Of a stretch of 64,000 nt of DNA, positions 1,468-51,586 are shown in pieces. A model generated the notes under the pieces. The model was not told the origin of the DNA. It saw only the letters and a list, made by a program, of their open reading frames with translations, and ran no database searches. Each line of letters opens with the position of its first letter. Position 1 is the first letter of the stretch. Both the position numbers and the translations under genes were made by a program. Source of the stretch: a virus. The DNA is taken from IMG/VR virus record IMGVR_UViG_3300017963_000231, positions 1-64,000 of that record; one strand, given 5' to 3'.

Positions 1468-1518
1468 CCCATTATAAAATATAGTAAATAAAAAATTCAT
1501 TTTCCCTTCACTTTTTTC

Positions 1519-1547
1519 TTGACAAACGATTTTATAGGTGCTATACT
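1519..1547 (+). promoter_or_regulatory. Sigma-70 promoter, conserved class A copy 1
   Basis: TTGACA at 1519-1524, 17-bp spacer, TATACT at 1542-1547. The spacer contains TTTTATAGGTG, shared with copies at 4196, 6127, 34035 and 35630. It follows a T-rich stretch and precedes a leader containing GCAAGGCAAACGTTAAG. Confidence 0.9.
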
Positions 1548-1608
1548 AGTTTTCAAGATGGGAAAACAAAGCAAGGCAAACGTTAAGAAAAGTGAGGAGG
1601 GAAAACCA

Positions 1609-1944
1609 ATGACGAGCATAGAAAGAGCGGAAAACTGGAGGGATCAGGTGGAAATGGAACTCATAGAAACCGAAAGCCTTTTGAACATGATGCTCCATTC
1701 CAGTGAATCAACCCAAGCGGATGTGGAAAAGATGCAGGATCAGGTGGAGCGGCTTAAGCATGAGCATACTCTGGCGGACGGGGAAGTCAAGATATCCCGT
1801 CTCGAAGAGGGATTCAGGAACCTGAGCCGCAAGGAACTGACCATGCTGGCGAATCGGGAGTGGACTGACTGGAAGGTCAAGGAAGCCGCCTTACGGGTCA
1901 AGGATTGGAAGGATGAGCGCCGGTGTGAAAGGAAGGTATCGTGA
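1609..1944 (+). CDS. Hypothetical coiled-coil protein, 111 aa
   Basis: I choose ATG 1609, 7 bases after GAGGAGGG, rather than the longer frame that would translate the promoter. The sequence is almost wholly helical and charged, with heptad-like spacing (VEMELIETESLLNMM). First gene after promoter copy 1. No known domain. Confidence 0.75.
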   Translation: MTSIERAENWRDQVEMELIETESLLNMMLHSSESTQADVEKMQDQVERLKHEHTLADGEVKISRLEEGFRNLSRKELTMLANREWTDWKVKEAALRVKDWKDERRCERKVS

Positions 1945-2090
1945 TGAAAACCATAAAATGCCGGAATCCGGAGTGTACTTTTAACCTGATTATCGATGAC
2001 CGTCAAGGCGTGATCCGGTGCCCCAAGTGCAAAACCCAACATGACCTTTCCACCGTGAACGTTGGAAGTCAAAAAACAAAAGTGAGGTAA
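1944..2090 (+). CDS. Small zinc-ribbon protein, 48 aa
   Basis: ATG 1944 overlaps the upstream TGA. The pattern is C-x4-C (CRNPEC), a 14-residue beta-like stretch, then CPKC, a classic two-knuckle zinc ribbon. The protein resembles the small Com-like/zinc-ribbon proteins of phages but is too short to name. Confidence 0.65.
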   Translation: MKTIKCRNPECTFNLIIDDRQGVIRCPKCKTQHDLSTVNVGSQKTKVR

Positions 2091-2096
2091 GATACC

Positions 2097-2570
2097 ATGA
2101 TGGAATGGCATATCCCCTCAATAGAGGAACTGAGAGACGTTTACGGAGTGGAAGTGGATTTTATCCCGGAGAGTAATGTTGCTATCGTGGTGGCGAACAA
2201 GGAAACAAAGAAAGTAGAGTTCTTGGAAATCGATTACTCGAAGATCGGCCTATCGAGCATTCAGCCTCAAGGATTCCATTTCCAGGATGATCTAAGTAAA
2301 ATGGAATCCTTTTTCGGGCCGTCAGGATGCCCCACAAGTGATGATATTGCGTGGGTCAGAGGTTTCAAGTTCAAGCACGATTCTTACCCCGATGAAATCA
2401 AAGTAAAAGTTGCCGGTATTCTGGCCGTGTTGGTCAAGGATTCCGCTGATGCTTTCAGGATTGCCGAGGCTTTTGCAAGGTATGCACGAATTAAGGGAAA
2501 CTCGGCGGATACTTACGCGGCAATGGCCTTTTATTTCCAGGCTCGGAATTTGATTGCGAAGGGGGATTAA
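2097..2570 (+). CDS. Hypothetical protein, 157 aa
   Basis: ATG 2097 (or 2100) lies 10 bases after GTGAGG. Acidic protein with a helical C-terminal half (DAFRIAEAFARYARIKG). No recognised domain. Sits between the zinc ribbon and a small basic protein in the same transcription unit. Confidence 0.7.
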   Translation: MMEWHIPSIEELRDVYGVEVDFIPESNVAIVVANKETKKVEFLEIDYSKIGLSSIQPQGFHFQDDLSKMESFFGPSGCPTSDDIAWVRGFKFKHDSYPDEIKVKVAGILAVLVKDSADAFRIAEAFARYARIKGNSADTYAAMAFYFQARNLIAKGD

Positions 2571-2571
2571 A

Positions 2572-2862
2572 TTGAGTGAGAATGCAAAAGAAAACCTTGA
2601 GTTATCTCTGAAAGTTAACTTTCTGGAAGAGCTATTCGGGGACAAAGCCAAGACTACTGAGCATGATATGATGAGGGCTCGCAAGTTGCTCCAAAAGCAT
2701 CCCGTTCATTCAACCCGAGTTAAGAAAGTTGCTTTGATGGCTTCCCGGATAACACATCCAGATAAAGCCTTCCGCCGGGCAAAAGCCTTTGAATTCATGG
2801 GATTACCGGAAGGGAAGAAAATCATGGTTGAAAAATGCTGGGAGCTATTGGGGAATTTATGA
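2572..2862 (+). CDS. Hypothetical protein, 96 aa, TTG start
   Basis: The start is TTG 2572, set by AGGGGG at 2560-2565; an upstream in-frame TTG at 2554 lacks a ribosome site. The protein is Lys/Glu rich and helical (RMARKLLQKHP-like composition). It overlaps the transglycosylase start by 4 bp. No known family. Confidence 0.65.
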   Translation: MSENAKENLELSLKVNFLEELFGDKAKTTEHDMMRARKLLQKHPVHSTRVKKVALMASRITHPDKAFRRAKAFEFMGLPEGKKIMVEKCWELLGNL

Positions 2863-3653
2863 TGAGAAAGGGACAGAGGAATTTTTTTGTATTTTTAGTC
2901 ATGTGTTTGGGCCTTCTCCTTACGGGGGATAGCCCTTCTCATGCGGAGCGCCAGTGTGAGCCGCTGATTGTGGAGAAGAAGGTGGTGGAGGAAGTGCTAG
3001 TATGCCCGGTGTGCTCCCTTCCAAAACCCTGCTTTTGGGCCAACGTAGCTCCTTCTGAGGCCGTGAAACTAGTAGAGGGGGCCATTACCTATCTTGATAC
3101 CGAGAAGAGGTATTTCAGGGGGAGGAAGCAAGCTCCAATCCTGAGTAAAAAAACCCGGAGGTACTATGCTTCTCGGATTGTGATGGAGTGCTACCGTCGG
3201 CAGATTGATCCTATTCGATTCACGGCTTTGATCTGGATCGAATCAGGGTTTAACCATAAGGCTCGATCTCATGCCGGGGCTAGAGGATTATGTCAAATCA
3301 TGCCTTTTTGGGTAGGGTATGGCGGTGAGCATCTTGATTTGGCTCGAATAGAGCATCCAGATTCCTGGCAAGTGGAGGATCTTTACGATCCGGATACCAA
3401 CATTTACCTTGGGGTTGAGATACTCCATTATTATCTGAAACAACGGAAAGGGAATTTCCGGAGGGCTATGGCTTCTTATAACGGGAGTTTGGGTTGGTCT
3501 TGGTATCCGAATATGGTTGATCGGGTGTATCGTGATCTCCTGAAGCAAGGATTCATCCCCGGTGATTACGATGAATTTACCCTGGAATTGGGGTACGATA
3601 CTGATTATTCAATATGGAGTAGGTTTAGCCCTTACGCTATTCCCGGCCCATAA
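2859..3653 (+). CDS. Exported lytic transglycosylase (SLT domain), 264 aa
   Basis: Cleaves peptidoglycan glycan strands. Residues 1-29 form a Sec signal peptide: basic start, hydrophobic core FFVFLVMCLGLLLTG, likely cut after SHA. The SLT fold is visible at about residues 120-215, with the catalytic glutamate in ALIWIESGFNHKARS followed by GARGLCQIMP and a later NGS. ATG 2859/2862 follows TTGGGGA. Because it carries a signal peptide it would reach the periplasm without a holin. It stands next to an exported nuclease and far from the tail genes, so it may serve lysis rather than entry. Family assignment is firm; role is inference. Confidence 0.85.
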   Translation: MMRKGQRNFFVFLVMCLGLLLTGDSPSHAERQCEPLIVEKKVVEEVLVCPVCSLPKPCFWANVAPSEAVKLVEGAITYLDTEKRYFRGRKQAPILSKKTRRYYASRIVMECYRRQIDPIRFTALIWIESGFNHKARSHAGARGLCQIMPFWVGYGGEHLDLARIEHPDSWQVEDLYDPDTNIYLGVEILHYYLKQRKGNFRRAMASYNGSLGWSWYPNMVDRVYRDLLKQGFIPGDYDEFTLELGYDTDYSIWSRFSPYAIPGP

Positions 3654-4183: not shown

Positions 4184-4195
4184 CTCATTTTTTTC

Positions 4196-4224
4196 TTGAC
4201 AAACGATTTTATAGGTGCTATACT
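4196..4224 (+). promoter_or_regulatory. Sigma-70 promoter, conserved class A copy 2
   Basis: TTGACA 4196-4201, 17-bp spacer identical to copy 1, TATACT 4219-4224. The leader repeats CAAGGCAAGCGTTAAG before an AAGGAGGG site. Confidence 0.9.
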
Positions 4225-4285
4225 AGTTTTCAAGATGGGAAATGGAAACAAGGCAAGCGTTAAGAAAGACAAGGAGGGAAACAAA

Positions 4286-6095: not shown

Positions 6096-6126
6096 TAAAT
6101 AAAAGGAAAGATTTTTCATTTTTTTC

Positions 6127-6155
6127 TTGACAAACGTTTTTATAGGTGTTATACT
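6127..6155 (+). promoter_or_regulatory. Sigma-70 promoter, conserved class A copy 3
   Basis: TTGACA 6127-6132, 17-bp spacer with TTTTTATAGGTG, TATACT 6150-6155, preceded by the same T-rich run as copies 2 and 4. Confidence 0.9.
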
Positions 6156-6201
6156 AGTTTTTAAGATGGAGCAAGGCAAAAACAAAATGGAGGGAAACAA
6201 A

Positions 6202-6462
6202 ATGAAAAACGCATTTACCAAATGGTTCGAGACTTTCTTAGAGGAAAAGAATCTCCCCCTCGCGTCCTGGGAGATTGAGGATGAATCGGGGATGGTTCAC
6301 TTCATCGACTCGGAAGTGGTGATCGAGGCCATCAAGGCGGCTCCGGCTTCCGAGCAAGCTCAGATCAAAGACGTGATCGTGAAAATCGATTTCGCCAATG
6401 GTGACGTAAACCACTTTTTCGGCCACCTTGCCAAAGGACTCGTGGCCAACTTCGGAGGGTAA
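6202..6462 (+). CDS. Hypothetical acidic protein, 86 aa
   Basis: ATG 6202 follows GGAGGG at 6189-6194. Acidic, helical at both ends (KNAFTKWFETFLEEKN). First gene after promoter copy 3. No recognised family. Confidence 0.75.
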   Translation: MKNAFTKWFETFLEEKNLPLASWEIEDESGMVHFIDSEVVIEAIKAAPASEQAQIKDVIVKIDFANGDVNHFFGHLAKGLVANFGG

Positions 6463-8994: not shown

Positions 8995-9304
8995 TCCAAC
9001 CGATAACGATGAGGGAAGGCTAGTCAAATATACTACCGGCGGGGACGGTAGACTGGAATTGTCTTCTGAGTACGGCAGGATCTATTCCTTCTCTGATAAG
9101 TACGTTTTTGTCCAGTTTGAGGATGGCCGTGGCGGGTATCAGATGACTCCACAAGCGTGTAGTAAGGAAAATCTGGAATGGTGCGACAATTATTTCCAGC
9201 TTTCCCCGGCCCGATTGGCCGAAATAGCAAAACGAGACTTGGCAAGTTCCGCACACCGTGCGGTGACTAACGCTCAGTGTTCCGTAAGTATCAAAAACAG
9301 GTGA
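8987..9304 (+). CDS. Hypothetical protein, 105 aa, GTG start
   Basis: GTG 8987 overlaps the upstream TAA. The frame is open further left, but that part is the shadow of the Cys-rich gene. Contains beta-strand-rich SFSDKYVFVQFEDGRGGYQ, typical of a small barrel. Last protein gene before the tRNA locus. Confidence 0.6.
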   Translation: MINPTDNDEGRLVKYTTGGDGRLELSSEYGRIYSFSDKYVFVQFEDGRGGYQMTPQACSKENLEWCDNYFQLSPARLAEIAKRDLASSAHRAVTNAQCSVSIKNR

Positions 9305-9701: not shown

Positions 9702-11897
9702 ATGACTTGGATGCTTAAACAAGGAGATGCCTTGAATGTTTTAAGGGAAATGGGTGATAACTTTACTCATTCTATCGTATGTGATCCACCTTACGGATTG
9801 AAATTCATGGGGAAAAAGTGGGATGCCGGACTACCGGACCCGGAGATATGGAAAGAGTGTCTTCGGGTACTCAAGCCCGGTGGATTCATGTTCGCTTTCT
9901 CCGGAACCCGGACCTATCACCGATTAGCGGTGGCCGTAGAGGATGCAGGATTCATCATCCATCCCATGTTCGGATGGATCTATGGGTGCCTTAGTGAGGA
10001 TACTGAAATACTTACGAAAAATGGGTGGAAACACTACCATAAATCCATTGAAGATGAGGATGTATTATGTTATACTCCAGGTAAGCAAAGTTTTCACTTT
10101 GAAAAACCTACTAGGAGTTTTTGCTATGAGAACGAACATCCCGCTTATCGAATTGAATCAGATTTTACAAGTCAACTCGTGTCCCGAAACCACCGTTGTC
10201 TTGTTGAACGAGATGGAAGAGAGGTATTCATCCGAGCCGAAGCATTGGAATCAGAAGAGACTGTACCCTTTTTGGAAAGTTTGTCCGATTTGCCAGAATC
10301 CCTTTTCAGTGAAGAATGTGAAGGAGTTTCACGGAAAAAAGACGTGTTCTCGAAAATGTGGAAACAAAATGATAGGGATAAAAAAGAAGGGGAAAACCAT
10401 AAATCCGGAACAATGTCCCGGAAAGATTCAAATAACATGTCCGGTTTGCGGGAAAAAAGTATGGAAAAACCGAGCGTGGATCAAACGAGTAAAAATCCCG
10501 ACATGCTCCAAAAAATGCAATGGCCAACTTCGATCCAAAGAATTAGTGAAGCATTCACACAAGGGAAGGAAAAACTGGCCAGAATCCGCCAAAAAATCCT
10601 TTTCCAAGAAAATGTCAGGCCCGAACAACCCAGCATGGAAAGGAGGGGTTACCAGAAGACGATCAAGGGGAAATTATGGTTCCGTTATTTATGTGAGATG
10701 CCCTGCCGAATTTTTAACTATGGCGAGGAAAGACGGTTATGTTATGCAACACCGATTAGTGATGGCGCAATATTTGAAACGCCCCCTGAAAAAAACGGAA
10801 GTAGTGCATCACAAAGATCACAATCCTCGCAACAATTCTTTGGAAAATCTGATGCTTTTTCCAAACAACCAAGAACACAAGTTGTACGAAGCACGAGAGC
10901 AAAAGTAACTAAAGTTGAATACAAAGGGAAAGTATGGTGTGTGCAAGTTTCGTCAGGGGCTTTTGTTGCCCGGCGTAAGGGTAAAATATTCATCACTGGA
11001 AATTCCGGGTTCCCAAAAGGGGCTGATCTAAGCAAGGCGATTGATAAAAAGCTCGGGGTAACTCGCAAGATAGTTGGAGTAGGGAAAGGGAGGACAGGCG
11101 ATGCCGCCCAACCCCACGGTGGCAGTCTCCATAGTGATGATAACTATCAGTGGCCCGGTGAGTTTAACGTCACTATGTCCGGCTCGGAAGAGGGGCAGAA
11201 ATGGGAAGGATGGAAGTATGGACTGCAAGCCCTCAAACCCGCCCTGGAGCCCATCCTACTCGCTCAGAAACCTTTTGAGGGGAAACCCGTTGATTCGATC
11301 CGTAAGCATGAGGTGGGAGCATTCAATATTGATGCTTGCCGTATCGCCCATAATGAAGAGTGTCGGGAAATGAAAGATCAACCTAATTACGGAAAGTTTT
11401 ACGGTCAAGGTGGAAGGCATGGGGCTACTCTTGAATTGAAACCTGAAGGACGCTACCCGGCTAACCTACTCTTGGATGGAGAACATCTAGGAGATGAATC
11501 GAGGTTCTTTCCAGTGATCGAGGTATGTCCTTTCATGTATCAAGCGAAAGCCTCCAAGCGGGAGCGGAATGAGGGATTGGATCACTTGGAGTCAAAATTC
11601 TCAGCTACGATGGGGGATGGGATAGGACAACGGGAACACAATCCGGAGGAAAAAAGTGCTTACGTCAAGAACATTCATCCCACCGTCAAGCCCGTTGAAC
11701 TGATGAGATGGTTGATCAAGCTCGTAACACGAGATGGACAACTCGTGCTTGACCCGTTCGCCGGATCAGGGACTACCGGCATAGCTTGTATCCAAGAAGG
11801 CAGGGACTTCATAGGTATCGAACTGGACCTGGAATACTGGAAAATTGCGACTGAGCGTTTGGATTATTGGGAGAAGAAACATGGTACAACAAAGTAA
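9702..11897 (+). CDS. DNA N4/N6 methyltransferase precursor containing an intein, 731 aa
   Basis: Methylates an adenine N6 or cytosine N4 in DNA using SAM. Extein motif IV DPPYGLKF is at residues 28-35 and the SAM motif LDPFAGSGTTGIA near the C-terminus, the order of beta-class enzymes. The IYG/SGFPKG motif typical of phage methyltransferases is split by a 339-residue intein between G95 and S435. After splicing the enzyme is about 392 residues, a usual length. No partner restriction gene is visible, so the role is probably protection from host restriction. Start ATG 9702. Confidence 0.88.
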   Translation: MTWMLKQGDALNVLREMGDNFTHSIVCDPPYGLKFMGKKWDAGLPDPEIWKECLRVLKPGGFMFAFSGTRTYHRLAVAVEDAGFIIHPMFGWIYGCLSEDTEILTKNGWKHYHKSIEDEDVLCYTPGKQSFHFEKPTRSFCYENEHPAYRIESDFTSQLVSRNHRCLVERDGREVFIRAEALESEETVPFLESLSDLPESLFSEECEGVSRKKDVFSKMWKQNDRDKKEGENHKSGTMSRKDSNNMSGLREKSMEKPSVDQTSKNPDMLQKMQWPTSIQRISEAFTQGKEKLARIRQKILFQENVRPEQPSMERRGYQKTIKGKLWFRYLCEMPCRIFNYGEERRLCYATPISDGAIFETPPEKNGSSASQRSQSSQQFFGKSDAFSKQPRTQVVRSTRAKVTKVEYKGKVWCVQVSSGAFVARRKGKIFITGNSGFPKGADLSKAIDKKLGVTRKIVGVGKGRTGDAAQPHGGSLHSDDNYQWPGEFNVTMSGSEEGQKWEGWKYGLQALKPALEPILLAQKPFEGKPVDSIRKHEVGAFNIDACRIAHNEECREMKDQPNYGKFYGQGGRHGATLELKPEGRYPANLLLDGEHLGDESRFFPVIEVCPFMYQAKASKRERNEGLDHLESKFSATMGDGIGQREHNPEEKSAYVKNIHPTVKPVELMRWLIKLVTRDGQLVLDPFAGSGTTGIACIQEGRDFIGIELDLEYWKIATERLDYWEKKHGTTK
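9987..11003 (+). other. Intein inside the methyltransferase, 339 aa
   Basis: Block A begins with nucleophile Cys96 in CLSEDTEILTKNGWK. Block B is LVSRNHRCLVERDG followed by VFIRAEAL. Block F is VEYKGKVWCVQVSSGAFVARR and block G is KIFITGN followed by Ser435 as the +1 residue. The penultimate residue is Gly instead of the usual His, so splicing may be slow or assisted. In the main frame the middle (about 10230-10900) looks like no known domain: it is the second-frame reading of the nested HNH gene. Confidence 0.88.
10126..10908 (+). CDS. HNH homing endonuclease nested out of frame in the intein, 260 aa
   Basis: A separate gene in the +1 frame relative to the methyltransferase. ATG 10126 lies 8 bases after AGGAG (10113-10117). 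Two treble-clef-like zinc motifs come first (CPICQNPF...CSRKCG and CPVCGKKV...CSKKCN), then an NUMOD-like NNPAWKGG, then the HNH core: QHRLVMAQYL, VVHHKDHNPRNNSLENL. This matches the phage/intron HNH_3 type that cuts DNA to spread its host element. The longer frame from 9943 has no ribosome site. It presumably mobilises the intein. Confidence 0.85.
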   Translation: MRTNIPLIELNQILQVNSCPETTVVLLNEMEERYSSEPKHWNQKRLYPFWKVCPICQNPFSVKNVKEFHGKKTCSRKCGNKMIGIKKKGKTINPEQCPGKIQITCPVCGKKVWKNRAWIKRVKIPTCSKKCNGQLRSKELVKHSHKGRKNWPESAKKSFSKKMSGPNNPAWKGGVTRRRSRGNYGSVIYVRCPAEFLTMARKDGYVMQHRLVMAQYLKRPLKKTEVVHHKDHNPRNNSLENLMLFPNNQEHKLYEAREQK

Positions 11898-12108
11898 TGT
11901 GGTAAAAGAAAAGTTTCGGGAACATCGATGGGCAAGATATGAGCATAGATTTCAAGCTCTTGCGGAATCAGCTTTGGATTTAATCAAGAAGAAAGCCCGG
12001 AGAGAATCAGAAATAAATGATCTTATTCAGGCTCTTCAAAACTTCAAAGATGGGAAAAAAGCCGCATATTATGCGGAAGATTTCCCGAAAGGGGATGAAA
12101 ATGACTGA
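11881..12108 (+). CDS. Hypothetical helical protein, 75 aa
   Basis: ATG 11881 overlaps the end of the methyltransferase. Highly charged and helical. Its C-terminal codons (GKKAAYYAEDFPK) also encode copy 1 of the 35-bp palindrome at 12052-12086. No family recognised. Confidence 0.65.
   Translation: MVQQSNVVKEKFREHRWARYEHRFQALAESALDLIKKKARRESEINDLIQALQNFKDGKKAAYYAEDFPKGDEND
12052..12086 (+). repeat. 35-bp palindromic element, copy 1 (within a gene)
   Basis: Outer arms GGGAAA and TTTCCC, inner arms CCGCAT and ATGCGG, exactly 35 bp, matching copies at 20312, 32687 and 47188. Ends 5 bases before AGGGG, the ribosome site of the gene starting at 12101. Confidence 0.8.
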
Positions 12109-19628: not shown

Positions 19629-20267
19629 ATGAGTGATGGAAGTTGGGCTGATGACGGATTTGAGGGTCTGCCGGAGGCCGAAAAAGAGTACGAAAAGCGG
19701 ATGTCGAATGATATCCAAAGATTCTGGCTTAAGCCGGGAACAACCAAGGAGATTGTTTTCGAGACGGATCAGCCAATTTGCTTTTGGGAGCATCAACTGA
19801 ATCTCAATGGAAGTTGGTTGAATTGGTTCACATGCCGATCCAAGCTGGAAGGTGGATGCCCGATCTGCGAGAGTGGGGATAATGCTTCTTATGTGGGGAT
19901 TTTCCTTGCTCGGGACATGACCGGGTACACAAGCAAGAAATCCGGAAAGCAAGTAGGGATTGGCCGTCGGATTTTTTTCGTGGCAAAGAAGAAAACTCTG
20001 ACTCAGATCAAGACTCTGAAGGAGCGTCGGGAAGGTGGCCTTGTCGGGCTTCGCTTTGCGGTAACTCGTTCGGATGAGAATTCGGCCAGTTGCGGGGATC
20101 TTTTCGATTCCGTTGGCAAGGAAGATTTGGCCGGTTTGCCCGATGTTGGGGAGAAGCCCGATTTGATGGAAGTGTTCAAGCCTCTTTCCAGGGAAGAGAT
20201 CATCAAGAGGATTGGCGGTGGGCCGATGGCTTTTGCTCCCCCGGAGGAAGATGACGTGCCGTTTTAA
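19629..20267 (+). CDS. Single-stranded DNA-binding protein-like, 212 aa
   Basis: ATG 19629 follows GAGGAGGT. The C-terminus ends EEDDVPF, the acidic tip of SSB proteins used to recruit partners. The core has a zinc-ribbon-like CRSKLEGGCPICESG, as in T4 gp32-type proteins, in a beta-rich context. Driven by its own strong promoter just after the primase. The family is inferred from tip, zinc site and context. Confidence 0.7.
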   Translation: MSDGSWADDGFEGLPEAEKEYEKRMSNDIQRFWLKPGTTKEIVFETDQPICFWEHQLNLNGSWLNWFTCRSKLEGGCPICESGDNASYVGIFLARDMTGYTSKKSGKQVGIGRRIFFVAKKKTLTQIKTLKERREGGLVGLRFAVTRSDENSASCGDLFDSVGKEDLAGLPDVGEKPDLMEVFKPLSREEIIKRIGGGPMAFAPPEEDDVPF

Positions 20268-20311
20268 GTATAATTAATTTTATACTTTCTATCATGTGTC
20301 ACGTGGAACAT

Positions 20312-20346
20312 GGGAAAGATACCGCATTATGTGCGGATATTTTCCC
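20312..20346 (+). repeat. 35-bp palindromic element, copy 2
   Basis: GGGAAA, 4 bp, CCGCAT, TAT, GTGCGG, 4 bp, TTTCCC pattern over 35 bp. Intergenic, nine bases before AAAGGAG and 22 bases before ATG 20369. Confidence 0.85.
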
Positions 20347-24783: not shown

Positions 24784-25254
24784 TTGAATAGTGAACGGAA
24801 GTATCAAAGAGACTATTACGAGAAAAACAAAGAGGAAATTCTGCGGAAGCGGAGGGAAAAGTACCAAGGTGATGCGGAATATCGAGCGAAAGTAATGGAG
24901 CGGGCTAGGAAATATCGAAAAAAGCAATGTCCTTTGACTGAGATTCGAGGTAGAAAAAAGGGTCCGCTTCCTCCGGTTCGAGTTAATGCTAAGTCGGGAA
25001 AGCTGGTACAAGCCTACTCTACTGGCTATGTGGCCGATAAGTTGGGAATTACTATGCAGACTCTCCGGAAGTGGGTTCGGAAAGGGAAGATACCTGAAAC
25101 TCCTTATTGGATTTCTACTGGACGGGTCTGGACTCAGCGAATGGTTAATGCAATGATAAAGGCTAAGGGTGCTTGCCGGAGTACGGGAGGCACGAGATCC
25201 AAGAACTACTTTTCTCAGGTAAGAGAATCGTGGCCTTGGGATGAAATGAAATAA
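24784..25254 (+). CDS. HTH DNA-binding protein, 156 aa, TTG start
   Basis: TTG 24784 is about 9 bases after AAGGGGG; GTG 24775 is possible. N-terminus is a basic helix (YQRDYYEKNKEEILRKRREK) of the kind seen in phage HNH-associated proteins. The middle YVADKLGITMQTLRKWVRKG is a MerR-like helix-turn-helix. Has its own promoter, so it may regulate recombination genes downstream or itself. No effector domain is visible. Confidence 0.7.
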   Translation: MNSERKYQRDYYEKNKEEILRKRREKYQGDAEYRAKVMERARKYRKKQCPLTEIRGRKKGPLPPVRVNAKSGKLVQAYSTGYVADKLGITMQTLRKWVRKGKIPETPYWISTGRVWTQRMVNAMIKAKGACRSTGGTRSKNYFSQVRESWPWDEMK

Positions 25255-31927: not shown

Positions 31928-32704
31928 ATGAAAGAGGCTAAGGTAGGAATGATCGATCTCGGAAATACCGGGATGGATGTAGGGTCTGAGCTTTATGATA
32001 TTTGGCGGGTGAAGATCAAACTTCGGAATGTGGTTTACGGCGGGGTGCCCAAGGATCCGAAAATAATTCAGAAGTGGATTGATGAGAAGATCAAGAAGGC
32101 CATTAAGGCCGGGCATGACATCACGCCGGAAATCGCGGAGGAAGAGCGGAAAAGGATCATGGAGACTCTGAATCTGGATGAGGACTCTAAGTGGTGCGGG
32201 TTCAAGGATATCTATCAGGGCGAAGAGGTTGGGCCGTATCTGGACGGCTACAATTTCAAGGCGATGATCCGAGAAGGGGCTACTCAAACCGGAGCCATGC
32301 TCCTTCGGTTCTCAAATAACCGGGGACTTCGCCAGCATTATCAGCATGGGATGCATGTCAAGGCAGGGGACGGCAAAAGCGATATTATCAGGTTGGGTAA
32401 GGTGGATGGTCAAGAAGAGTTTGTGGGCCATGTCAAGACTCCTCAAGGCGAAAAATCCATCCTTTCTCGGCATGATTATGTGGGATCGAGGGAACTTGAA
32501 TTCCAGGTTTGGAGCCTCGCGGTAGGTATCCTGGATGATGAATTGTTGGCCACCATCTTGAAGGCTACTCAGGAGATTGGACTTGGGGCTTGCCGGTCCA
32601 GGGAGTTGAGCAAGTTCGATCTTGTGGAGATGGAGCGGATTCAGGTAGGGAAGATCGACCATTTTCTCAAGATGAAGGCCAAGAAAGGGAAAAAAGACGC
32701 ATAA
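31928..32704 (+). CDS. Hypothetical protein, 258 aa
   Basis: ATG 31928 follows AAAGGAGGTC. Alpha/beta with a long charged helix (DPKIIQKWIDEKIKKAIKAG). Near the C-terminus ATQEIGLGACRSRELSKFDL loosely echoes the Gly-rich loop of RAMP-type RNA-binding proteins; I would not call it. Last codons contain the left half of palindrome copy 3. Confidence 0.65.
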   Translation: MKEAKVGMIDLGNTGMDVGSELYDIWRVKIKLRNVVYGGVPKDPKIIQKWIDEKIKKAIKAGHDITPEIAEEERKRIMETLNLDEDSKWCGFKDIYQGEEVGPYLDGYNFKAMIREGATQTGAMLLRFSNNRGLRQHYQHGMHVKAGDGKSDIIRLGKVDGQEEFVGHVKTPQGEKSILSRHDYVGSRELEFQVWSLAVGILDDELLATILKATQEIGLGACRSRELSKFDLVEMERIQVGKIDHFLKMKAKKGKKDA

Positions 32705-32721
32705 TGTGCGGAGATTTTCCC
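32687..32721 (+). repeat. 35-bp palindromic element, copy 3
   Basis: GGGAAA outer arm, CGCAT inner arm, AAT, GTGCGG, then TTTTCCC, 35 bp. Straddles the stop codon of the preceding gene (32702-32704) and is followed by ACAAGGAG and an ATG with only a short frame. Confidence 0.85.
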
Positions 32722-33405
32722 ACAAGGAGTATGGTTTTTTCAGGCGGATGATTTTAACGCTTTCGGGATCATTTTAGCGTGAGGGGATTCATTTCCGATT
32801 TTTGTGGATGATTGGGCTTCTTGTGGGAAGTGGAGGGTCAACTTAGAGTTGACGGGAGTTATCGGCCCCTCCCGGCTGAGAATGACTTTGAAACGGCGGG
32901 GTTTCAGGGTAATTTGATCTTTGACAATTCAGTGGGACAAGTCAGGCTAGATCAGTACAAATCATGGGGACTTATCTACTCTGTGCAATACTACTCAGTT
33001 CAAATCGAGAGGACTTTTCCTTGCGCTACCTATCGGAACGGCAAGACTGATCCAGTCATCTCAACTTATATCAAATCGGAGCGACTTTGCGTTACCAGTC
33101 CACTCAGGTCGTTATGACTCATCGGATCATCTCAACTCGTGTCTAGAGGACCAATCAGCTAGAGGCAAATCGGAACGTATCCATGGGACTAATCTAATCA
33201 AATCTGTTCTGAGAGACTACACTATACAACGCACTACGAAACGGTATGACCACTCATGACGGAGCAAGGCGAAGCTATGCCCAGGGACTTATCTAATCAA
33301 ATCTGTTCTGAGAGACTAGGCACTTCATTACCTATCATTGTGACATATCAATTCGATTCCAGGGGACATATCAAACCGCTACTGATCGATACGGAGGGAC
33401 AAAAT
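32722..33405 (+). other. Gene-free region of about 680 bp with repeats and hairpins
   Basis: No coding frame is convincing. A 35-bp repeat (GGGACTNATCTAATC..., ending GAGAGACTA) occurs at 33185-33219 and 33284-33318 with one mismatch, 99 bp apart; GGGACTTATCTA recurs at 32968. CAAATC-type words recur throughout. Two adjacent hairpins: 32837-32843/32847-32853 (7 bp) and 32853-32858/32869-32874 (6 bp). A weak TTGACA occurs near 32922 with no -10. Could be an RNA, an origin or a recombination site. Confidence 0.6.
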
Positions 33406-33993
33406 ATGAAATTAATGGTTTGCAATAAATGCGGAGATGTGATTTTTCCTCGCGGGGAAGCGGGGATATGGAAGTGGTGTATTTGCGGAAACATTGGAGG
33501 CATGTACGAGGACGGGTTGAAGTTTCTTGTGGCGATTGACGATCCGGATTATGCTCGGGTTGTGGGGATCGATAACAATGTTCTCGTAGGGAACTGTGAC
33601 TTAGGGGAGATATGGAAGCAAAAGCCGGGTGATCCAGCTTCCGGACGTAACCTGAAGGAGATATCCATTACCGAGGCCAGACGGGTTTACGGGTACTCTG
33701 GAGAGGCTTCGGATACTCTTGTGATCGACTTGGCTAAGGTGGTAGGGGTAGTTCCATCTGATTCGAGCCCGTGCTTTTCGGAAATGGTGTTCCATCTTGT
33801 CATGAAGGCTGATCGTATTAATAGGGAGAGGCTCAGAGCTATCTTCCCTATTTATGTTCAAATGGTGGATAGATTCCAGCTTAAAGACGGGGTTATCGCT
33901 CATCCTCAGCATCCGGAGATGGGGTTTTATGAGCCTTGCGGGGATAAGGGCTATCAGTGGCGATATCCTTTAGATACGGAGATAAGCAAGTAA
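33406..33993 (+). CDS. Hypothetical protein with N-terminal zinc ribbon, 195 aa
   Basis: ATG 33406 follows GGAGGG at 33393-33398. CNKCGDVIFP...WCICGN at the start forms a zinc ribbon. Then an alpha/beta region of unknown fold. The frame extends upstream to 33256 but that part lies in repeat DNA. A terminator follows at once. Confidence 0.7.
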   Translation: MKLMVCNKCGDVIFPRGEAGIWKWCICGNIGGMYEDGLKFLVAIDDPDYARVVGIDNNVLVGNCDLGEIWKQKPGDPASGRNLKEISITEARRVYGYSGEASDTLVIDLAKVVGVVPSDSSPCFSEMVFHLVMKADRINRERLRAIFPIYVQMVDRFQLKDGVIAHPQHPEMGFYEPCGDKGYQWRYPLDTEISK

Positions 33994-33997
33994 AAAC

Positions 33998-34024
33998 GGG
34001 GGCTTCGGCCCCCTAAATTTTTTT
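33998..34024 (+). terminator. Rho-independent terminator
   Basis: GGGGGC-TTCG-GCCCCC (33998-34013), a UUCG tetraloop hairpin, then TAAATTTTTTT. Ends the unit before promoter copy 4. Confidence 0.9.
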
Positions 34025-34034
34025 CATTTTTTTC

Positions 34035-34063
34035 TTGACAAACGGTTTTATAGGTGTTATACT
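34035..34063 (+). promoter_or_regulatory. Sigma-70 promoter, conserved class A copy 4
   Basis: TTGACA 34035-34040, spacer with GGTTTTATAGGTG, TATACT 34058-34063. Leader repeats AAGCAAGGCAAGACGTTAAG before AAGGAGGGG. Confidence 0.9.
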
Positions 34064-34130
34064 AGATTTTACAATCGAATAACGGGAAACAAGCAAGGCA
34101 AGACGTTAAGGAAATAAGGAGGGGAGCAAA

Positions 34131-34301
34131 ATGAAAAGCATCAAGGAATTAGAGATAGACATCATCGAGGCGGAAGAGGCCATCGAGATGGAAAATAACC
34201 CTGAAATGATCCAGTTTTGGGAAGAGGAAATCAAAGACACAAAGGCGTTGATCGATGAGATCCAGTGGGCTCTTCACATGGTTCCGGCGGTCACAAAGTA
34301 A
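34131..34301 (+). CDS. Small acidic helical protein, 56 aa
   Basis: ATG 34131 follows AAGGAGGGGAGC. Nearly all helix, Glu/Ile rich. First gene of the AAA/VWA operon. Function unknown. Confidence 0.7.
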   Translation: MKSIKELEIDIIEAEEAIEMENNPEMIQFWEEEIKDTKALIDEIQWALHMVPAVTK

Positions 34302-35620: not shown

Positions 35621-35629
35621 GAAAAATTC

Positions 35630-35658
35630 TTGACAAACTATTTTATAGGTGCTATACT
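35630..35658 (+). promoter_or_regulatory. Sigma-70 promoter, conserved class A copy 5
   Basis: TTGACA 35630-35635, spacer with TATTTTATAGGTG, TATACT 35653-35658, then a short leader with TCGTTAAG and AAGGAGGG. Confidence 0.9.
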
Positions 35659-35691
35659 AGGTTTTATCGTTAAGTCAAGGAGGGAAACAAA

Positions 35692-37614
35692 ATGGAATCG
35701 GCCTTAGCAAAAGTAGCGAAAATCATGGCAAGGGAATACGGGTTGAATGTCCGGTTCACCGGGTCCGGGGCTTGCGTTAACCTTAAAACCAAGGAGATGC
35801 AACTTCCGGCCCTGGATGATCCGGTCATTTTTGAGACCATTTCCGGGTATTTGGACCATGAGGTTGCTCATGTAAGGTTTACGGATATCGTTCCGTCAAT
35901 TAAGGATTCTCTGACCATGGATCTTTTCCGGGTGTTGGAGGATGTGAGGGTTGATCGGGATATGGGCAATCTTTACACCGGCTCCCATAAGAATATCGGG
36001 CGGACTCGGAAGGCCGTGTATGAGGCTCTTTTCACGGAAGCCAATGACCTAAATGAGATGTTCTGGATGGATATTCTGGAAATGACTTCGGGCCGGATGG
36101 AGTTCGATGAAATGGGTCCGATGGCTCAGGAAGCCGTTCTCAAAGCCCTTGATCTTTTCATGGGTCTGGATGAGATAAAGACCACGGCTGATTGTGTAAG
36201 CCTTTGCGAGAAGATTGCCAAGCGGTGGAGGGATACCGATGCCAATCCTACTCCTCAGCCGTCTCCTGGAGGCTCTGAGGAGGAGCAAGAGGGGGATAGT
36301 GATGGTTCCTCTGATTCTGGCGGTCAGGGGGATTCTGAGGGCGACTCAAAGGAAGGATCTAAGGGGGGATCAAAGAAAAAAGGCAAGAAGGGCTCGAAAA
36401 AAGAGGGAGAGGAAGATAAGGACGGTGAGGGCAAGAAAAAAGGCAAGGGAAAAAAGAAGGGCGAGGGCAAGAAAAAAGATAAGAAGGGCGATAAAACGGG
36501 AGATGTAGACTCTCCTGATGCGAATAGCAACAAGCATGCTCCGAAGGATGGAGGAACGGAAGCGGCGGGTATCCGGCGGGAGGATGTGGATATCGCCATT
36601 ATTCGGGATTACGATAAACTGGATTTGATCGATCCTGAAAAAGCGTTGGATCACGGGATCAATAAGATCATAAACGCTCAGGTCAAGAAGTGTGCGAATG
36701 ATGTTCATATCCCTTTTACCACGGAATATGATGTGGTTAAAGACGATTCAAAATCCCGGAACACGATAAAAGAGAAAGCCATAAGGGAGGAAGTTAAAAG
36801 TACCGTTGGAGTGTTGATCAGGCGGCTTCAGATGGTTCTTTTGGCTCGGGATCGGGCAAGGGATCGGTTTGAGCTTGATCGGGGTAGGATCGATTCGAGG
36901 AGGCTTCATCAGCTTATCCATAAAACGTCTAATCGAGTGTTTAAGACTCGGGTAGAGGCCGAAACCGAGAGTACCGCCGTTTATCTCTTAGTTGATTGCT
37001 CGGGTTCGATGGGAGGAAAGAAAATTATAGCGGCTCAGAAGGCGGCTTGCGCGTTTTCAGCTTGTCTCGATCAGCTTGGGATTGTGCATGAAGTAGGTAG
37101 TTTTCAGTGTGTCAAGTCTGAGGAGATAAGAAATGCGTTCGAACAATACATTGAGGCTAACGGCATGGATTGTTATGATTCTCCGTTTAATAGGTATTAT
37201 GAAATCCTTTCTCATAGCATTGTAAAGCGATTTGATCAGCCTTTTGCGCAAGGGGCTTTCGCGAATTTAATGGCGGGGTGTAACAATTGTGACGGTGAAT
37301 CCGTGAGGGTAGCGGCTCGTCTTTTGGCTCAGAGGCCGGAAAAACGTAAGATTCTTATGGTGTTTTCGGACGGGATGCCTAGTTGTTATTCGGACCATGA
37401 TTTGCTCCATAAGGATCTTAAAAAGGCCGTGAAGGAAATCATGGATGCCGGGATTGAGACTATTGGGGTCGGGATCAGGACCAGTGCTCCAAAGATGTTT
37501 TATCCTGATTGGATTCTGATCGATGATATAACGACTCTTCCTACGGAAGTGATCAGTCAGCTTGAGAAGTTACTCTTTAATGGGATGATCGGGAAAAAGC
37601 GGAGGGTAGCGTGA
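35692..37614 (+). CDS. CobT-like zincin-VWA protein, 640 aa
   Basis: N-terminal metalloprotease-like motif LDHEVAHVRFTD (HEVAH 56-60) with FRVLEDVRVDRD downstream, where Glu/Asp would complete the zinc site, as in CobT/YehL-type proteins. A highly charged Gly/Lys/Asp/Glu linker spans about 180-290. The C-terminal VWA domain has the MIDAS motif LVDCSGSMGG near 434 and later MVFSDGMPS. Expected partner of the MoxR ATPase at 34316. Catalysis by the HEVAH site is not proven. Confidence 0.8.
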   Translation: MESALAKVAKIMAREYGLNVRFTGSGACVNLKTKEMQLPALDDPVIFETISGYLDHEVAHVRFTDIVPSIKDSLTMDLFRVLEDVRVDRDMGNLYTGSHKNIGRTRKAVYEALFTEANDLNEMFWMDILEMTSGRMEFDEMGPMAQEAVLKALDLFMGLDEIKTTADCVSLCEKIAKRWRDTDANPTPQPSPGGSEEEQEGDSDGSSDSGGQGDSEGDSKEGSKGGSKKKGKKGSKKEGEEDKDGEGKKKGKGKKKGEGKKKDKKGDKTGDVDSPDANSNKHAPKDGGTEAAGIRREDVDIAIIRDYDKLDLIDPEKALDHGINKIINAQVKKCANDVHIPFTTEYDVVKDDSKSRNTIKEKAIREEVKSTVGVLIRRLQMVLLARDRARDRFELDRGRIDSRRLHQLIHKTSNRVFKTRVEAETESTAVYLLVDCSGSMGGKKIIAAQKAACAFSACLDQLGIVHEVGSFQCVKSEEIRNAFEQYIEANGMDCYDSPFNRYYEILSHSIVKRFDQPFAQGAFANLMAGCNNCDGESVRVAARLLAQRPEKRKILMVFSDGMPSCYSDHDLLHKDLKKAVKEIMDAGIETIGVGIRTSAPKMFYPDWILIDDITTLPTEVISQLEKLLFNGMIGKKRRVA

Positions 37615-44817: not shown

Positions 44818-44913
44818 AGTAGGTCGTGAGGTTTAAGATGCATAATTATGCGTGTAGTTGTCGGATAATAGAATATTAGGGGGCGAATTTGTCTTACCTA
44901 GAGGGGGTAGGTT

Positions 44914-45777
44914 GTGAGTGGTCGGATACGATTAACGGAAGGTTTTCGGAGGTTGCGGCGGTCAAGGAGATTCCATGATATCCATGCTCTTATAGTGGCC
45001 GGGGTAGCATGTAATGAAATCGCGAGGAAGATTCAGATGGAGTGGCGGGAGATGAACACGGTATCCCAAGCAACGTTGGCAAAGCAACTGGAGAGGTATC
45101 GTAAGTCCCTGGAGGTAGGGGGGTTGGCTCCCCATGAGATTCCGGAAGAGGCCCGAAAGGCCAGGGGGGGTATCCTGGGTTCGGCGCTGGAAAAAGGGGG
45201 GTGGGCAGTATATGATGCGGAAACGTCCTCATCTAAGGTGGATGAAGATCCGTACAAAGGTCGGACTAAGGCAGAGATCGAGCAAGCATCTTCAGGTGAT
45301 TTGGCGAGGATGGTTGAAAAAGAGAAGGCAATCCCTACTGACGGGGCGGTAGATGTAAAGGAGGGGCTATCCAAGCTACTCGATATTCAGATGGCTCGAA
45401 TCGCGATGGAGGTAAAGAATGAAGAGAGTATAGGGAAGCTCATGCCGGGGACGGGGTTAGAAATCAACGTAGCCAAGGATATACTCAAGTCTCTCCATGT
45501 GGTGCAGGGGGATCTAGGGTTGACTCACAAGGAACCTGATCAGCTATCAGTAGGTATAGGGATCGGTCCTTCCAAGGATTTGACGGAAGCATTGTCTAAG
45601 TCTGGATTATTAAAGACTATTTCTGACAAAAACTCCCGAAAACGTATTTTAAAAGCGCTTCAGGGGGAGACCCCTCTAGGGGGGCAGACATTTTTGCCTG
45701 AAATGTCGGAAAATGCGGAAAATGAGGATGATGTGGTCCAAGTAGTTGAAAATAAAGGAGGAAATGGGGATGGATAA
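44914..45777 (+). CDS. Probable terminase small subunit, 287 aa, GTG start
   Basis: GTG 44914 follows GAGGGGG. N-terminal helix-turn-helix ALIVAGVACNEIARKIQMEW after a basic RRLRRSRR. Long helical middle and acidic tail. Small terminases recognise the packaging site, lie upstream of the large subunit and have this HTH/coiled-coil layout. Sequence alone is weak. The 96-bp gap before it holds an inverted repeat GCATAATTATGC. Confidence 0.55.
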   Translation: MSGRIRLTEGFRRLRRSRRFHDIHALIVAGVACNEIARKIQMEWREMNTVSQATLAKQLERYRKSLEVGGLAPHEIPEEARKARGGILGSALEKGGWAVYDAETSSSKVDEDPYKGRTKAEIEQASSGDLARMVEKEKAIPTDGAVDVKEGLSKLLDIQMARIAMEVKNEESIGKLMPGTGLEINVAKDILKSLHVVQGDLGLTHKEPDQLSVGIGIGPSKDLTEALSKSGLLKTISDKNSRKRILKALQGETPLGGQTFLPEMSENAENEDDVVQVVENKGGNGDG

Positions 45778-45997
45778 GAGTTGCATAAACTGCGATTTTA
45801 ATTATAGTTGTGATGCTAGGTTAAAAGGGAAGTTTGAGCCTTCCTTTTGCCAGGAGTTCTCTATCAATATCGATCAGGATGATGAAAAAGGGAATCGGGA
45901 GCGGGCAGAGCAATGCAAGTTCTTTGTCCCAAGGGGAGGGGACCGGAGTAAGGTGCCGGATCGGGAGCGGTGGTATGAGAAAGATAGTATCGCATAA
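45770..45997 (+). CDS. Small Cys-rich protein, 75 aa
   Basis: ATG 45770 lies 7 bases after AAAGGAGG. CINCDFNYSCDARL and CQEF, CKFF give five cysteines spaced for a metal site. Unknown. Confidence 0.6.
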   Translation: MDKSCINCDFNYSCDARLKGKFEPSFCQEFSINIDQDDEKGNRERAEQCKFFVPRGGDRSKVPDRERWYEKDSIA

Positions 45998-46076
45998 ATG
46001 TGCGAAGCTCTTGAGTAAGGATATGGAGCGGTGCATTGCTGAAAAGGTCGGGGATGAGAGTAAGGGAGAAAAGTAA
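45975..46076 (+). CDS. Tiny basic protein, 33 aa
   Basis: ATG 45975 in a frame overlapping the previous gene's end. Lys-rich with two cysteines. Its first codons contain TCGCATAAATGTGCGA, a degenerate relative of the inner arms of the 35-bp palindrome. Weak gene. Confidence 0.4.
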   Translation: MRKIVSHKCAKLLSKDMERCIAEKVGDESKGEK

Positions 46077-47136: not shown

Positions 47137-47187
47137 GTTATATACCGCATATATAGTGAAAATTAATGTGTAATGCATATCTATGCA

Positions 47188-47222
47188 GGGAAAATTACCG
47201 CATTGTGTGCGTAATTTTTCCC
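47188..47222 (+). repeat. 35-bp palindromic element, copy 4
   Basis: GGGAAA, ATTA, CCGCAT, TGT, GTGCGT, then AATTTTTCCC over 35 bp. Followed directly by GAGGAGGG and ATG 47237. Confidence 0.85.
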
Positions 47223-47236
47223 GAGGAGGGTTGAAA

Positions 47237-47785
47237 ATGGGTGACGGGAAGGGAGGCGGCGCTGGCGGTGGAGGTACTGCGGCGGCAGTTGGCGGGAAAG
47301 AGGGACTCCGGGAACTGGATCAGGTTCTTCGAGGGGCGGAATCTTATTCAGGGACGATCTTGGCCGAGCAGGAAAGTCAGTATTTAGGTGGTTTCGGTCC
47401 GGTCCGGCGGTCAGGTCCGGCTCCTTGGGATCGGTTTAATTTCAGGTCTCAACCGAACGGCAATTTGGGCGGGATCCGGAGAAATGACCGGATTGTGATC
47501 ACGGGCCAGGGTTTCGGCAGTAGGAGGGATCCGCCAAGTCGATGGGTAACCGGTCCGGCTCGTGTCACTTCGGTTCGAGGGCGTGGGGATGGTCGAACGG
47601 TGACGGTTTCACCTATCGGGAATTGGTCTCGCCATCGGTCGATTACCCTGAATACGGCTCCTGCCAGGGCTCCGGGGCAGAGATTTACCACTTCTCCCCA
47701 ATCGAGTGAGGTCAGGACTAGTCCAAATACTCCGGCTCGAAGGAGAGGGGTGACGGTGATGACGGTAACGGGGAGGGCTGAGTGA
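47237..47785 (+). CDS. MGD/glycine-run family protein 5, 182 aa
   Basis: ATG 47237 follows GAGGAGGG. Begins MGDGKGGGAGGGG. Middle is Arg/Gly rich with DRIVITGQGFGSRRDPP and GDGRTVTVSPIGNW, beta-like. Ends in a basic TARRRGVTVM-type tail. Overlaps the terminase start. Confidence 0.65.
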   Translation: MGDGKGGGAGGGGTAAAVGGKEGLRELDQVLRGAESYSGTILAEQESQYLGGFGPVRRSGPAPWDRFNFRSQPNGNLGGIRRNDRIVITGQGFGSRRDPPSRWVTGPARVTSVRGRGDGRTVTVSPIGNWSRHRSITLNTAPARAPGQRFTTSPQSSEVRTSPNTPARRRGVTVMTVTGRAE

Positions 47786-49572
47786 GTTTATCCAGTGAGG
47801 AGCAAGAACTTTTACGCCAGATTGTGGAGGAGTTCGACGATCACGGTGAGAGTTCTACGCTCGAACTCCTGCTTGGGATGGATTTTGATTACATCCTTCC
47901 CGATATGGAGACGTTCCTTCTTGACCCTTATTACATGGGACAGACCGGAAAATCCATATACCCAAAGCTCCTGGATGATTTAATTGAAATCTTTGAGGAC
48001 GGCCCATTCATTGAGATCCATCTGACTGGAGGCATTGGATGGGGAAAGAGCACGATTGCTGAATTTATCATGGCTCGGATGATTGCGGAGTGCTGGGTTT
48101 ATAAAGATCCGGCTACTGCATTCGGGCTCATGCCAGGGTCTACGATCTCATTTATGAATATTTCCGTGAGTGAGGGCCAAGCCCGGAGGGTCATTTTCAA
48201 GGGGTTATACCAAAAACTTACCAGATCTCCCTTTTTTCAGGAGTGTTGTCGTCCGGATCCGAAAGTTGTGACGGAACTTCGGTTCCCCAAGAATCTTTGG
48301 ATGGCTCCTTTGGCTTCGACGGATAATTCTGCTTTAGGACTCGATATTTGGGGCGGGATCATGGATGAGGCCAATTTTATGGCCGTGGTGGAGAAATCCA
48401 AAGCCGCCGGACGGGGGAATAAGCGGTTTGATCTTGCGGAGAACATCTATTATACCATCCAGCGACGGATGAAGTCTCGATTTATGGAGGCTGGCACTAT
48501 TCCAGGGAAGCTCGTGATTGTTTCATCCAAGAATTATCCCAATACTTTCATGGAAAGGCGGATGAAGGAGGTAAGGGATATGGAGGAACAGGGGGTTTTT
48601 ATACGTGATTATGCCACTTGGGAGCCCAAACCTTCGAGAATTTATTGTGGGGATACTTTCCCAGTGGAAGTTGGAGATGTGGCCAATGTTTCTCGTATTT
48701 TGACCCTGGAGCAAGCGGAAAAGGCCCATGGAAAGGTTATTGATGTACCAGTGGAGTTCCGGAAAGACTTCGAGAAGGATATCGATCAGGCTATTCGGGA
48801 TTTGGCTGGGGTTGCGACGGCTACAATTAACCCATATTTCAAGGATTTTCGGAAGATTACTACTGCGATTGACTCTCGGAGACATCCATTTACGGCTGAA
48901 AGCACTAATTTGCAGGATGGGGCGGGGTTTATTCAAGATTCGCTTGTGGAAATGGACCCAAGAACCAAGAAAACTATCCCTCGAATATCCCCGACTGAGC
49001 CCCGATGGGTGCATGTGGACCCGTCTTTGTCAGGGGATGCTACGGGAATTGCGATGGGGCATGTGGCCGGTCTTGTGGAGATCGAGAGGAAAGATGACGA
49101 TACGGAGCGGTGGACTATTGAAGAGGCTCCGTTGATTTGCATTGATTTTATGCTCCGGGTTGTCCCACCGGTTGGCGGTGAGATTCAGTTTCGGAATGTG
49201 AGGCAGTTGGTTTATTCTCTTACTGAGATGGGTTTTTTGATCAAGGGGGTATCGGCTGATAGTTATCAATCAGCGGAATCAATGCAACATTACCAGTATC
49301 GAGGATATCAGACGGCTCGATTTAGCGTAGAGCGTGAGGATGCCTATAAATTGCTCAAGGATGCGTTTTACGAAGGTCGGGTGAAGATGTATGAATATCC
49401 ACCGGTGATCGGTGAATTAAGGCAGTTGGAGTTTGATAAATCTTCGGGTAAAATTGATCACCCGGCTGGCGGGACAAAGGATGTTTCTGATGCCGTTTGC
49501 GGTGTGGTGGTGGGATTGATGAGGTATATGGTCGTGAAAAGTAAAACTAACTTTGGGGTACAGGTGTTTTGA
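47782..49572 (+). CDS. Terminase large subunit, 596 aa, GTG start
   Basis: ATP-driven DNA packaging motor and nuclease. Walker A GGIGWGKST near 85, Walker B GGIMDEANF near 197, and the RNase H-like nuclease Asp in VHVDPSLSGDATGIA near 414 with GVSADSYQSAE and a final GTKDVSDAV carrying further acidic ligands. GTG 47782 is set by GGGAGGG and overlaps the previous stop. Confidence 0.9.
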   Translation: MSLSSEEQELLRQIVEEFDDHGESSTLELLLGMDFDYILPDMETFLLDPYYMGQTGKSIYPKLLDDLIEIFEDGPFIEIHLTGGIGWGKSTIAEFIMARMIAECWVYKDPATAFGLMPGSTISFMNISVSEGQARRVIFKGLYQKLTRSPFFQECCRPDPKVVTELRFPKNLWMAPLASTDNSALGLDIWGGIMDEANFMAVVEKSKAAGRGNKRFDLAENIYYTIQRRMKSRFMEAGTIPGKLVIVSSKNYPNTFMERRMKEVRDMEEQGVFIRDYATWEPKPSRIYCGDTFPVEVGDVANVSRILTLEQAEKAHGKVIDVPVEFRKDFEKDIDQAIRDLAGVATATINPYFKDFRKITTAIDSRRHPFTAESTNLQDGAGFIQDSLVEMDPRTKKTIPRISPTEPRWVHVDPSLSGDATGIAMGHVAGLVEIERKDDDTERWTIEEAPLICIDFMLRVVPPVGGEIQFRNVRQLVYSLTEMGFLIKGVSADSYQSAESMQHYQYRGYQTARFSVEREDAYKLLKDAFYEGRVKMYEYPPVIGELRQLEFDKSSGKIDHPAGGTKDVSDAVCGVVVGLMRYMVVKSKTNFGVQVF

Positions 49573-51557: not shown

Positions 51558-51586
51558 TTGACAAGTCGGTATATTTATGTTTTACT
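51558..51586 (+). promoter_or_regulatory. Sigma-70 promoter for the head genes
   Basis: TTGACA 51558-51563, 17-bp spacer, TTTACT 51581-51586. The leader can fold as GAAAGG/CCTTTC (51594-51613) or GGTTG/CAACC (51598-51618), mutually exclusive, before AAAGGAGG. Confidence 0.7.

Follow-up and report, generated by a model that had tools for sequence, protein, structure and literature searches.

The recurrence of a 35-bp imperfect palindrome along a viral genome raises the question of what recognizes this element, and whether it does so as DNA or as RNA. We addressed it in the 86,828-bp IMG/VR record IMGVR_UViG_3300017963_000231, positions 1-64000 of which constitute the window, that is, the whole stretch of DNA analyzed here. 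Genes of this virus run almost all in one direction and encode replication and recombination proteins (DnaB, primase, DNA polymerase I, an SF2 helicase, and a UvsX/RecA-like protein), RuvC-like and Cas4-like nucleases, several DNA methyltransferases, and a tail sheath and tail tube. The latter two, along with the other gene content, make it probably a myovirus. Neither an integrase nor ParB was seen in this virus, and an Rfam search returned tRNA only.

Five palindromes at gene junctions

An earlier note on this DNA had described four copies of the palindrome, and its description was partly confirmed. Each copy is indeed exactly 35 bp long at the following positions, and the outer arms GGGAAA/TTTCCC are identical in all four.

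12052-12086, + strand: 35-bp site 1, in the 3' end of ORF 11881-12108, 14 nt from ATG 12101
20312-20346, + strand: 35-bp site 2, 44 nt past the stop of the 19629-20267 gene, 22 nt from ATG 20369
32687-32721, + strand: 35-bp site 3, overlapping the stop codon of 31928-32704, with no gene directly downstream
47188-47222, + strand: 35-bp site 4, 14 nt from ATG 47237

The inner arms, given as CCGCA/TGCGG, are found in copies 1 and 2 and also in a fifth copy, GGGAAAGGTGCCGCATACTATGCGGCCTTTTTCTC, which lies outside the window at record positions 67252-67286 and carries one mismatch; copy 3 has ACGCA and copy 4 TGCGT instead. The 4+4 bp between outer and inner arms are for the most part mispaired, and no compensatory change was found in them across the copies. 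A position-weight scan of the whole record scored the five sites at 45-49 bits, with the next best at 12.8, while the maximum in shuffles was about 6 bits. The 35-bp element is thus real and well delimited, and it is operator-like.

The gene ahead of copy 2 seems SSB-like from our reading of its C-terminus, and ATG 20369 opens the gene in front of DNA polymerase I, whereas the gene starting at ATG 47237 lies directly upstream of that for the terminase large subunit. Copy 3 stands at the end of an operon, where an AAGGAG past the element leads only to a 6-codon ORF, and the first base of copy 5 directly follows the tail-tube stop, the next start being 69 nt away. The claim that the element always precedes a ribosome site therefore holds for copies 1, 2, and 4 but fails for copies 3 and 5; the constant feature of the five is a gene junction.

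A broader search with the core [CT]GCA[CT]-N3/4-[AG]TGC[AG] yielded nine matches in the record, against a mean of 1.4 and a largest value of 5 in shuffles. These are the five 35-mers and four smaller sites:

47174-47187, + strand: minimal N4-type site TGCATATCTATGCA, abutting site 4
45991-46004, + strand: minimal N4-type site CGCATAAATGTGCG, overlapping the stop codon of 45770-45997
44839-44852, + strand: minimal N4-type site TGCATAATTATGCG, 21 nt past the stop of the 44209-44817 gene
9250-9262, + strand: candidate minimal N3-type site CGCACACCGTGCG, in the gap before tRNA-Gln

Of the nine, eight fall at or within gene junctions, even though intergenic DNA makes up only 6% of the record, and the same core with spacings N2 and N5-N8 gave three matches, all within genes. 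The candidate at 9250 is devoid of outer arms and is the weakest member of the set.

Strong sigma-70-like promoters (TTGACA-17-TATAAT type) were found within the initial 38.5 kb and at the record's right end, with one more candidate, read by eye, near 51559. Among the promoters found there was no convincing case of overlap with a 35-mer. As separate observations, a promoter cassette of ~100 bp recurs in the window (1508-1604, 4185-4281, 6112-6207, 33998-34136, and 35627-35696) and near the right end (record 85719-85834 and 86321-86424), several of its copies with promoters of the TTGACA-17-TGTATACT type. An A/T-rich palindrome, AAGTATAATTAATTTTATACTT, occupies window positions 20265-20288, just upstream of site 2, and the stretch past site 3 (32722-34130) contains few genes and repeats such as GGGACTTATCTAATCAAATCTGTTCTGAGAGACTA.

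Related palindromes in other phages

An exact scan of IMG/VR for the 35-mer matched only near-identical contigs of the same metagenome; the two sister contigs share 99.9% of their DNA with this virus, that is, they are the same virus, and hence contribute no independent conservation. A scan of GTDB genomes gave one match inside an ABC transporter gene and a second, a perfect hairpin, in a contig of a bacterial MAG; we took both as chance. Relatives were found by terminase alignment, using as query:

47782-49572, + strand: terminase large subunit

Alignment of the DNA polymerase gave only about 30% identity among the matches listed. The 35-mer itself is in none of the close relatives recovered with the terminase (63-73% identity), which carry shorter palindromes of the same core (TGCACTTGAGTGCA, TGCACACGTGTGCA, and CGCATTCAAGTGCG) in the same places, namely before the terminase, after the capsid, and after the tail tube. 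The search of the rest of the genome and of relatives that the earlier note had proposed thus did yield further copies, a fifth in the record and related palindromes in relatives.

Three copies of ATGCACTTGAGTGCAT occur in genome G005 (63% terminase identity): before terL, inside the gene following the capsid gene, and directly past the tail-tube stop. Locus L113 carries TGCACACGTGTGCA after the capsid and again immediately behind the tail tube; in G006 (73%), from the same metagenome and likely the same virus, four palindromes spaced ~26 bp apart precede the terminase, and G003 (72%) has CACCGCATTCAAGTGCGGTG ahead of the Gly-rich gene upstream of the terminase. Together, these positions indicate that place is largely kept, and that the sequence hardly varies within one phage yet changes from one phage to another. 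Only this virus has the N3 spacing and the GGGAAA/TTTCCC arms, so membership of the 35-mer in the family rests on its core, its place, and the neighboring N4 sites.

Two further features of the terminase region were recorded. Small proteins that start with MGD(G/A) followed by a long glycine run (MGDGKGGGAGGGG-like) are encoded at window positions 39518, 40842, ~41198, ~46078, and 47237, and form a paralogue family near the terminase that is also present in G003. In G006 (L105, flipped ~1895-3025), ~1.1 kb interrupts the terminase large subunit gene at a point matching window 48369/48371, possibly as an intron or homing element.

Counting of repeated palindromes in other terminase loci revealed the same frame, TGCA-N6-TGCA. 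Stenotrophomonas phage DLP5, Vibrio phage V-YDF132, and Rhizobium phage RHph_TM16 harbor 16-37 copies, with one inner sequence per phage, and complete or long records of the wider clade contain 9-37 copies versus 0-3 of the reversed control. An unbiased count of palindromic 14-mers per genome, done on complete or long relatives, identified as the dominant word TGCAATTAATTGCA in V-YDF132 (25 copies), G015 (26), G017 (25), and G018 (22), TGCAATCAATTGCA in DLP5 (26), TGCAAACGTTTGCA in G013 (17), TGCAACATATTGCA in RHph_TM16 (9), and TGCAATTAAGTGCA in SIO-2 (5); in the seven genomes with nine or more copies the next unrelated palindrome had at most three. Seven genomes have more sites at stop codons than expected (25 versus 4.0 in G018), many of the relatives' sites lie inside genes, and an exact TTGACA is located within 3-20 nt of 12 of the 32 sites in V-YDF132. 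A literature search with three of the clade's 14-mers found no paper containing them, and the clade-wide site system is apparently undescribed. On the side, a recurrent variant with one half-site altered, TGAAATTAATTGCA, occurs 17 and 14 times in G015 and G017 (L231-L240) and perhaps represents a weaker class of sites, and the UvsX-like gene of SIO-2 (L216-L220, 48426-49504) consists of two adjacent ORFs.

Candidate binding proteins

A ParB_N protein is encoded in seven of the nine complete or near-complete genomes examined, and a ParB-family gene is present in all seven genomes with at least 16 sites, two places upstream of terL except in G018, where it lies elsewhere. Across 58 terminase loci, at least two sites were found in 12 of 22 with ParB versus 2 of 36 without it (P=4e-5, uncorrected for shared ancestry). 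As the presence of ParB tracks site number, this protein is the best candidate binder in the relatives. No ParB domain was found in this virus, in SIO-2, or in the fragments of close relatives, and both this virus and SIO-2 have few sites; ParB was accordingly dropped as the binder in this virus, where this role may instead fall to one of two other proteins:

24784-25254, + strand: HTH protein (MerR-like, phrog_19880), candidate binder, in the gene order of DLP5 gp59
44914-45777, + strand: second candidate binder, homologue of DLP5 gp113

The first, which the earlier note had named as a possible regulator, is a plausible choice in that its gene place is conserved, between the SF2 helicase and the UvsX-like gene both here and in DLP5. 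However, this type of HTH protein was not found in G015, G017, or G018, all of them with many sites, whereas the ParB-like gene is present in such phages. The second is probably the small terminase; its DLP5 counterpart, gp113, corresponds to the gene between ParB and TerL in relatives.

In the literature searched we found no description of the target DNA of terminase-adjacent ParB-like proteins. The palindromes supply a testable site set for them, also in the cultured phages DLP5, DLP3, V-YDF132, and RHph_TM16. Should ParB bind these sites, this would show genome-wide coordination of transcription, plasmid-like maintenance, or packaging, as well as a joint change of site and protein between relatives.

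Probable dispersed operators and competing readings

These observations lead us to regard the five 35-bp elements as probable dispersed operators, recognized as double-stranded DNA by a dimeric sequence-specific protein and representing this virus's version of a YGCA-N5/6-TGCR family. Palindromes of this family are scattered along the genomes of a large clade, made up of both uncultivated and cultured phages, with a strong excess at gene junctions, where a bound dimer would act as a roadblock or local repressor separating transcription units, and would thus restrain transcription into the next gene or operon. In relatives with a site just upstream of a −35 box, the promoter may be blocked, as by KorB at O_B. 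In many relatives, the binder would probably be the ParB-family protein whose gene lies second upstream of that for the large terminase; in this virus, it may be the HTH protein at 24784 or the protein at 44914. The shared operator proposed earlier is hence supported in part: a stoperator-like operator is the best-supported reading, and DNA is favored over RNA rather than proven as the recognized form. Against it speak the mixed orientation of the sites in DLP5, the location of many of the relatives' sites within genes, and the fact that this virus and SIO-2 have sites yet no ParB. A more specific scenario, which we put forward only tentatively, is that the wider clade, whose phages share one terminase type, loads a phage ParB clamp throughout the genome at dozens of near-identical palindromes, silencing or insulating genes or segregating a plasmid prophage, and that the clade of this virus, having lost ParB, turned the sites over to another regulator, with an altered spacer and outer arms added.

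The kind of element is ordinary in that dispersed phage operators are already known, and the conserved inverted repeats of phiC31 are one possible comparison. The closest parallel to the relatives' system may be drawn with KorB of plasmid RK2, a ParB-family CTP clamp that also silences genes and whose operator O_B is separated from the promoters downstream by 4-10 bp or more (PMC11790492). Both systems combine short palindromic operators dispersed over one replicon, some of them a few bp upstream of promoters, and in relatives of this virus a ParB-family gene tracks the sites. As with ParB-type sites, dispersed palindromes of 14-16 bp were found, up to 37 TGCA-N6-TGCA in relatives, next to three N4-type and five longer sites in this virus, which is, however, a phage rather than a plasmid, is without detectable ParB, and has 35-mers with extra outer arms. 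In cluster A mycobacteriophages, stoperators are 13-bp sites that lack symmetry, mostly share one orientation, and are recognized by a repressor acting as a monomer (PMC6550527, PMC9283540). They share with the present elements the presence of many dispersed sites mostly off promoters (none of the five overlaps the strong sigma-70-like promoters found) and a consensus similar within a phage but diverged between relatives; here, by contrast, the sites are palindromes and there are only candidates for the binder. As to orientation, a slight asymmetry of the sites in this virus has the same direction in every informative copy, and DLP5 has both orientations.

In cluster K mycobacteriophages, the SAS contains the Shine-Dalgarno sequence and the ESAS, an imperfect inverted repeat, has a consensus that varies among subclusters (PMC3203893). 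Although these are also repeated elements just upstream of start codons, the 35-mer lies upstream of the Shine-Dalgarno sequence or has no following gene, copies 3 and 5 being without a gene start within 60 nt. Finally, SPBRE of the temperate Bacillus phage SPbeta is a 15-bp promoter motif bound by MrpR, a repressor with a recombinase fold (PMC10516654). Its dispersed intergenic repeats were likewise found in silico, years ahead of the phage repressor, but they are only 15 bp long, are located at promoters of a temperate phage, and have a recombinase-fold binder.

Partition or genome organization, with the palindromes as centromeres in the manner of parS, Noc sites, or the dispersed centromeres of N15, is an unlikely primary role. 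It would account for the fairly regular spacing of dozens of 14-bp palindromes, many of them in genes, in phages with ParB, and DLP5 is a plasmid prophage; in the relevant passages of the DLP5 and DLP3 papers, partition is predicted from ParB domains and no site is named. However, the DLP5 annotation showed no ParA, sites are few in this virus, which also lacks ParB and any sign of lysogeny, and the strong junction and promoter-proximal placement suggests transcription over partition, even if both roles can coexist, as in KorB.

We consider comparably doubtful an RNA-level element, i.e., a sense-strand hairpin, bound by a protein or otherwise steering translation, processing, or termination at the adjacent gene. 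The + strand of all five copies folds better than shuffles (z −2.0 to −4.2), the asymmetric pairs in the 35-mers read on the sense strand as seven G-U and no A-C, the pattern expected of an RNA hairpin, three copies lie 14-22 nt ahead of a start codon, and copy 5 resembles an intrinsic terminator in sequence. Nevertheless, the minus strand also folds well, compensatory changes are absent, and two of the five copies lack a nearby start. By sequence, copy 5 alone has a long T-run immediately behind the stem, so the U-run of a terminator is missing from most copies; copies 2 and 4 passed the rule of a terminator scan, which in these regions passes sites at a chance-level rate.

The palindromes of relatives offer only short stems of 5-7 bp, some with self-complementary centers, and dozens of them are inside genes in either orientation. 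Moreover, each of the seven distinct N4 sequences has complementary bases at the two outer spacer positions, which fits a DNA dimer and would be useless in an RNA tetraloop. Symmetric centers, copies in genes, both orientations, and the lack of compensatory change all argue for DNA, which we deem much the more probable recognized form.

Sites of a host-encoded regulator exploited by the phage are very unlikely. TGCAC-N4-GTGCA resembles what we take to be the LexA box of Fibrobacter, and phage-encoded binders in this virus are only candidates; alphaproteobacterial phages do use CtrA (PMC9437464), which sets a precedent. Against this reading, the ParB gene tracks the sites, and one inner sequence per phage within a TGCA frame shared across phages of Vibrio, Rhizobium, and Stenotrophomonas points to a phage-carried protein. 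Chance or functionless leftover repeats are the least credible explanation, since, despite only five full copies and sister contigs that are the same virus, the information content is far above that of shuffles, the places match in relatives, and the palindromes recur across the clade.
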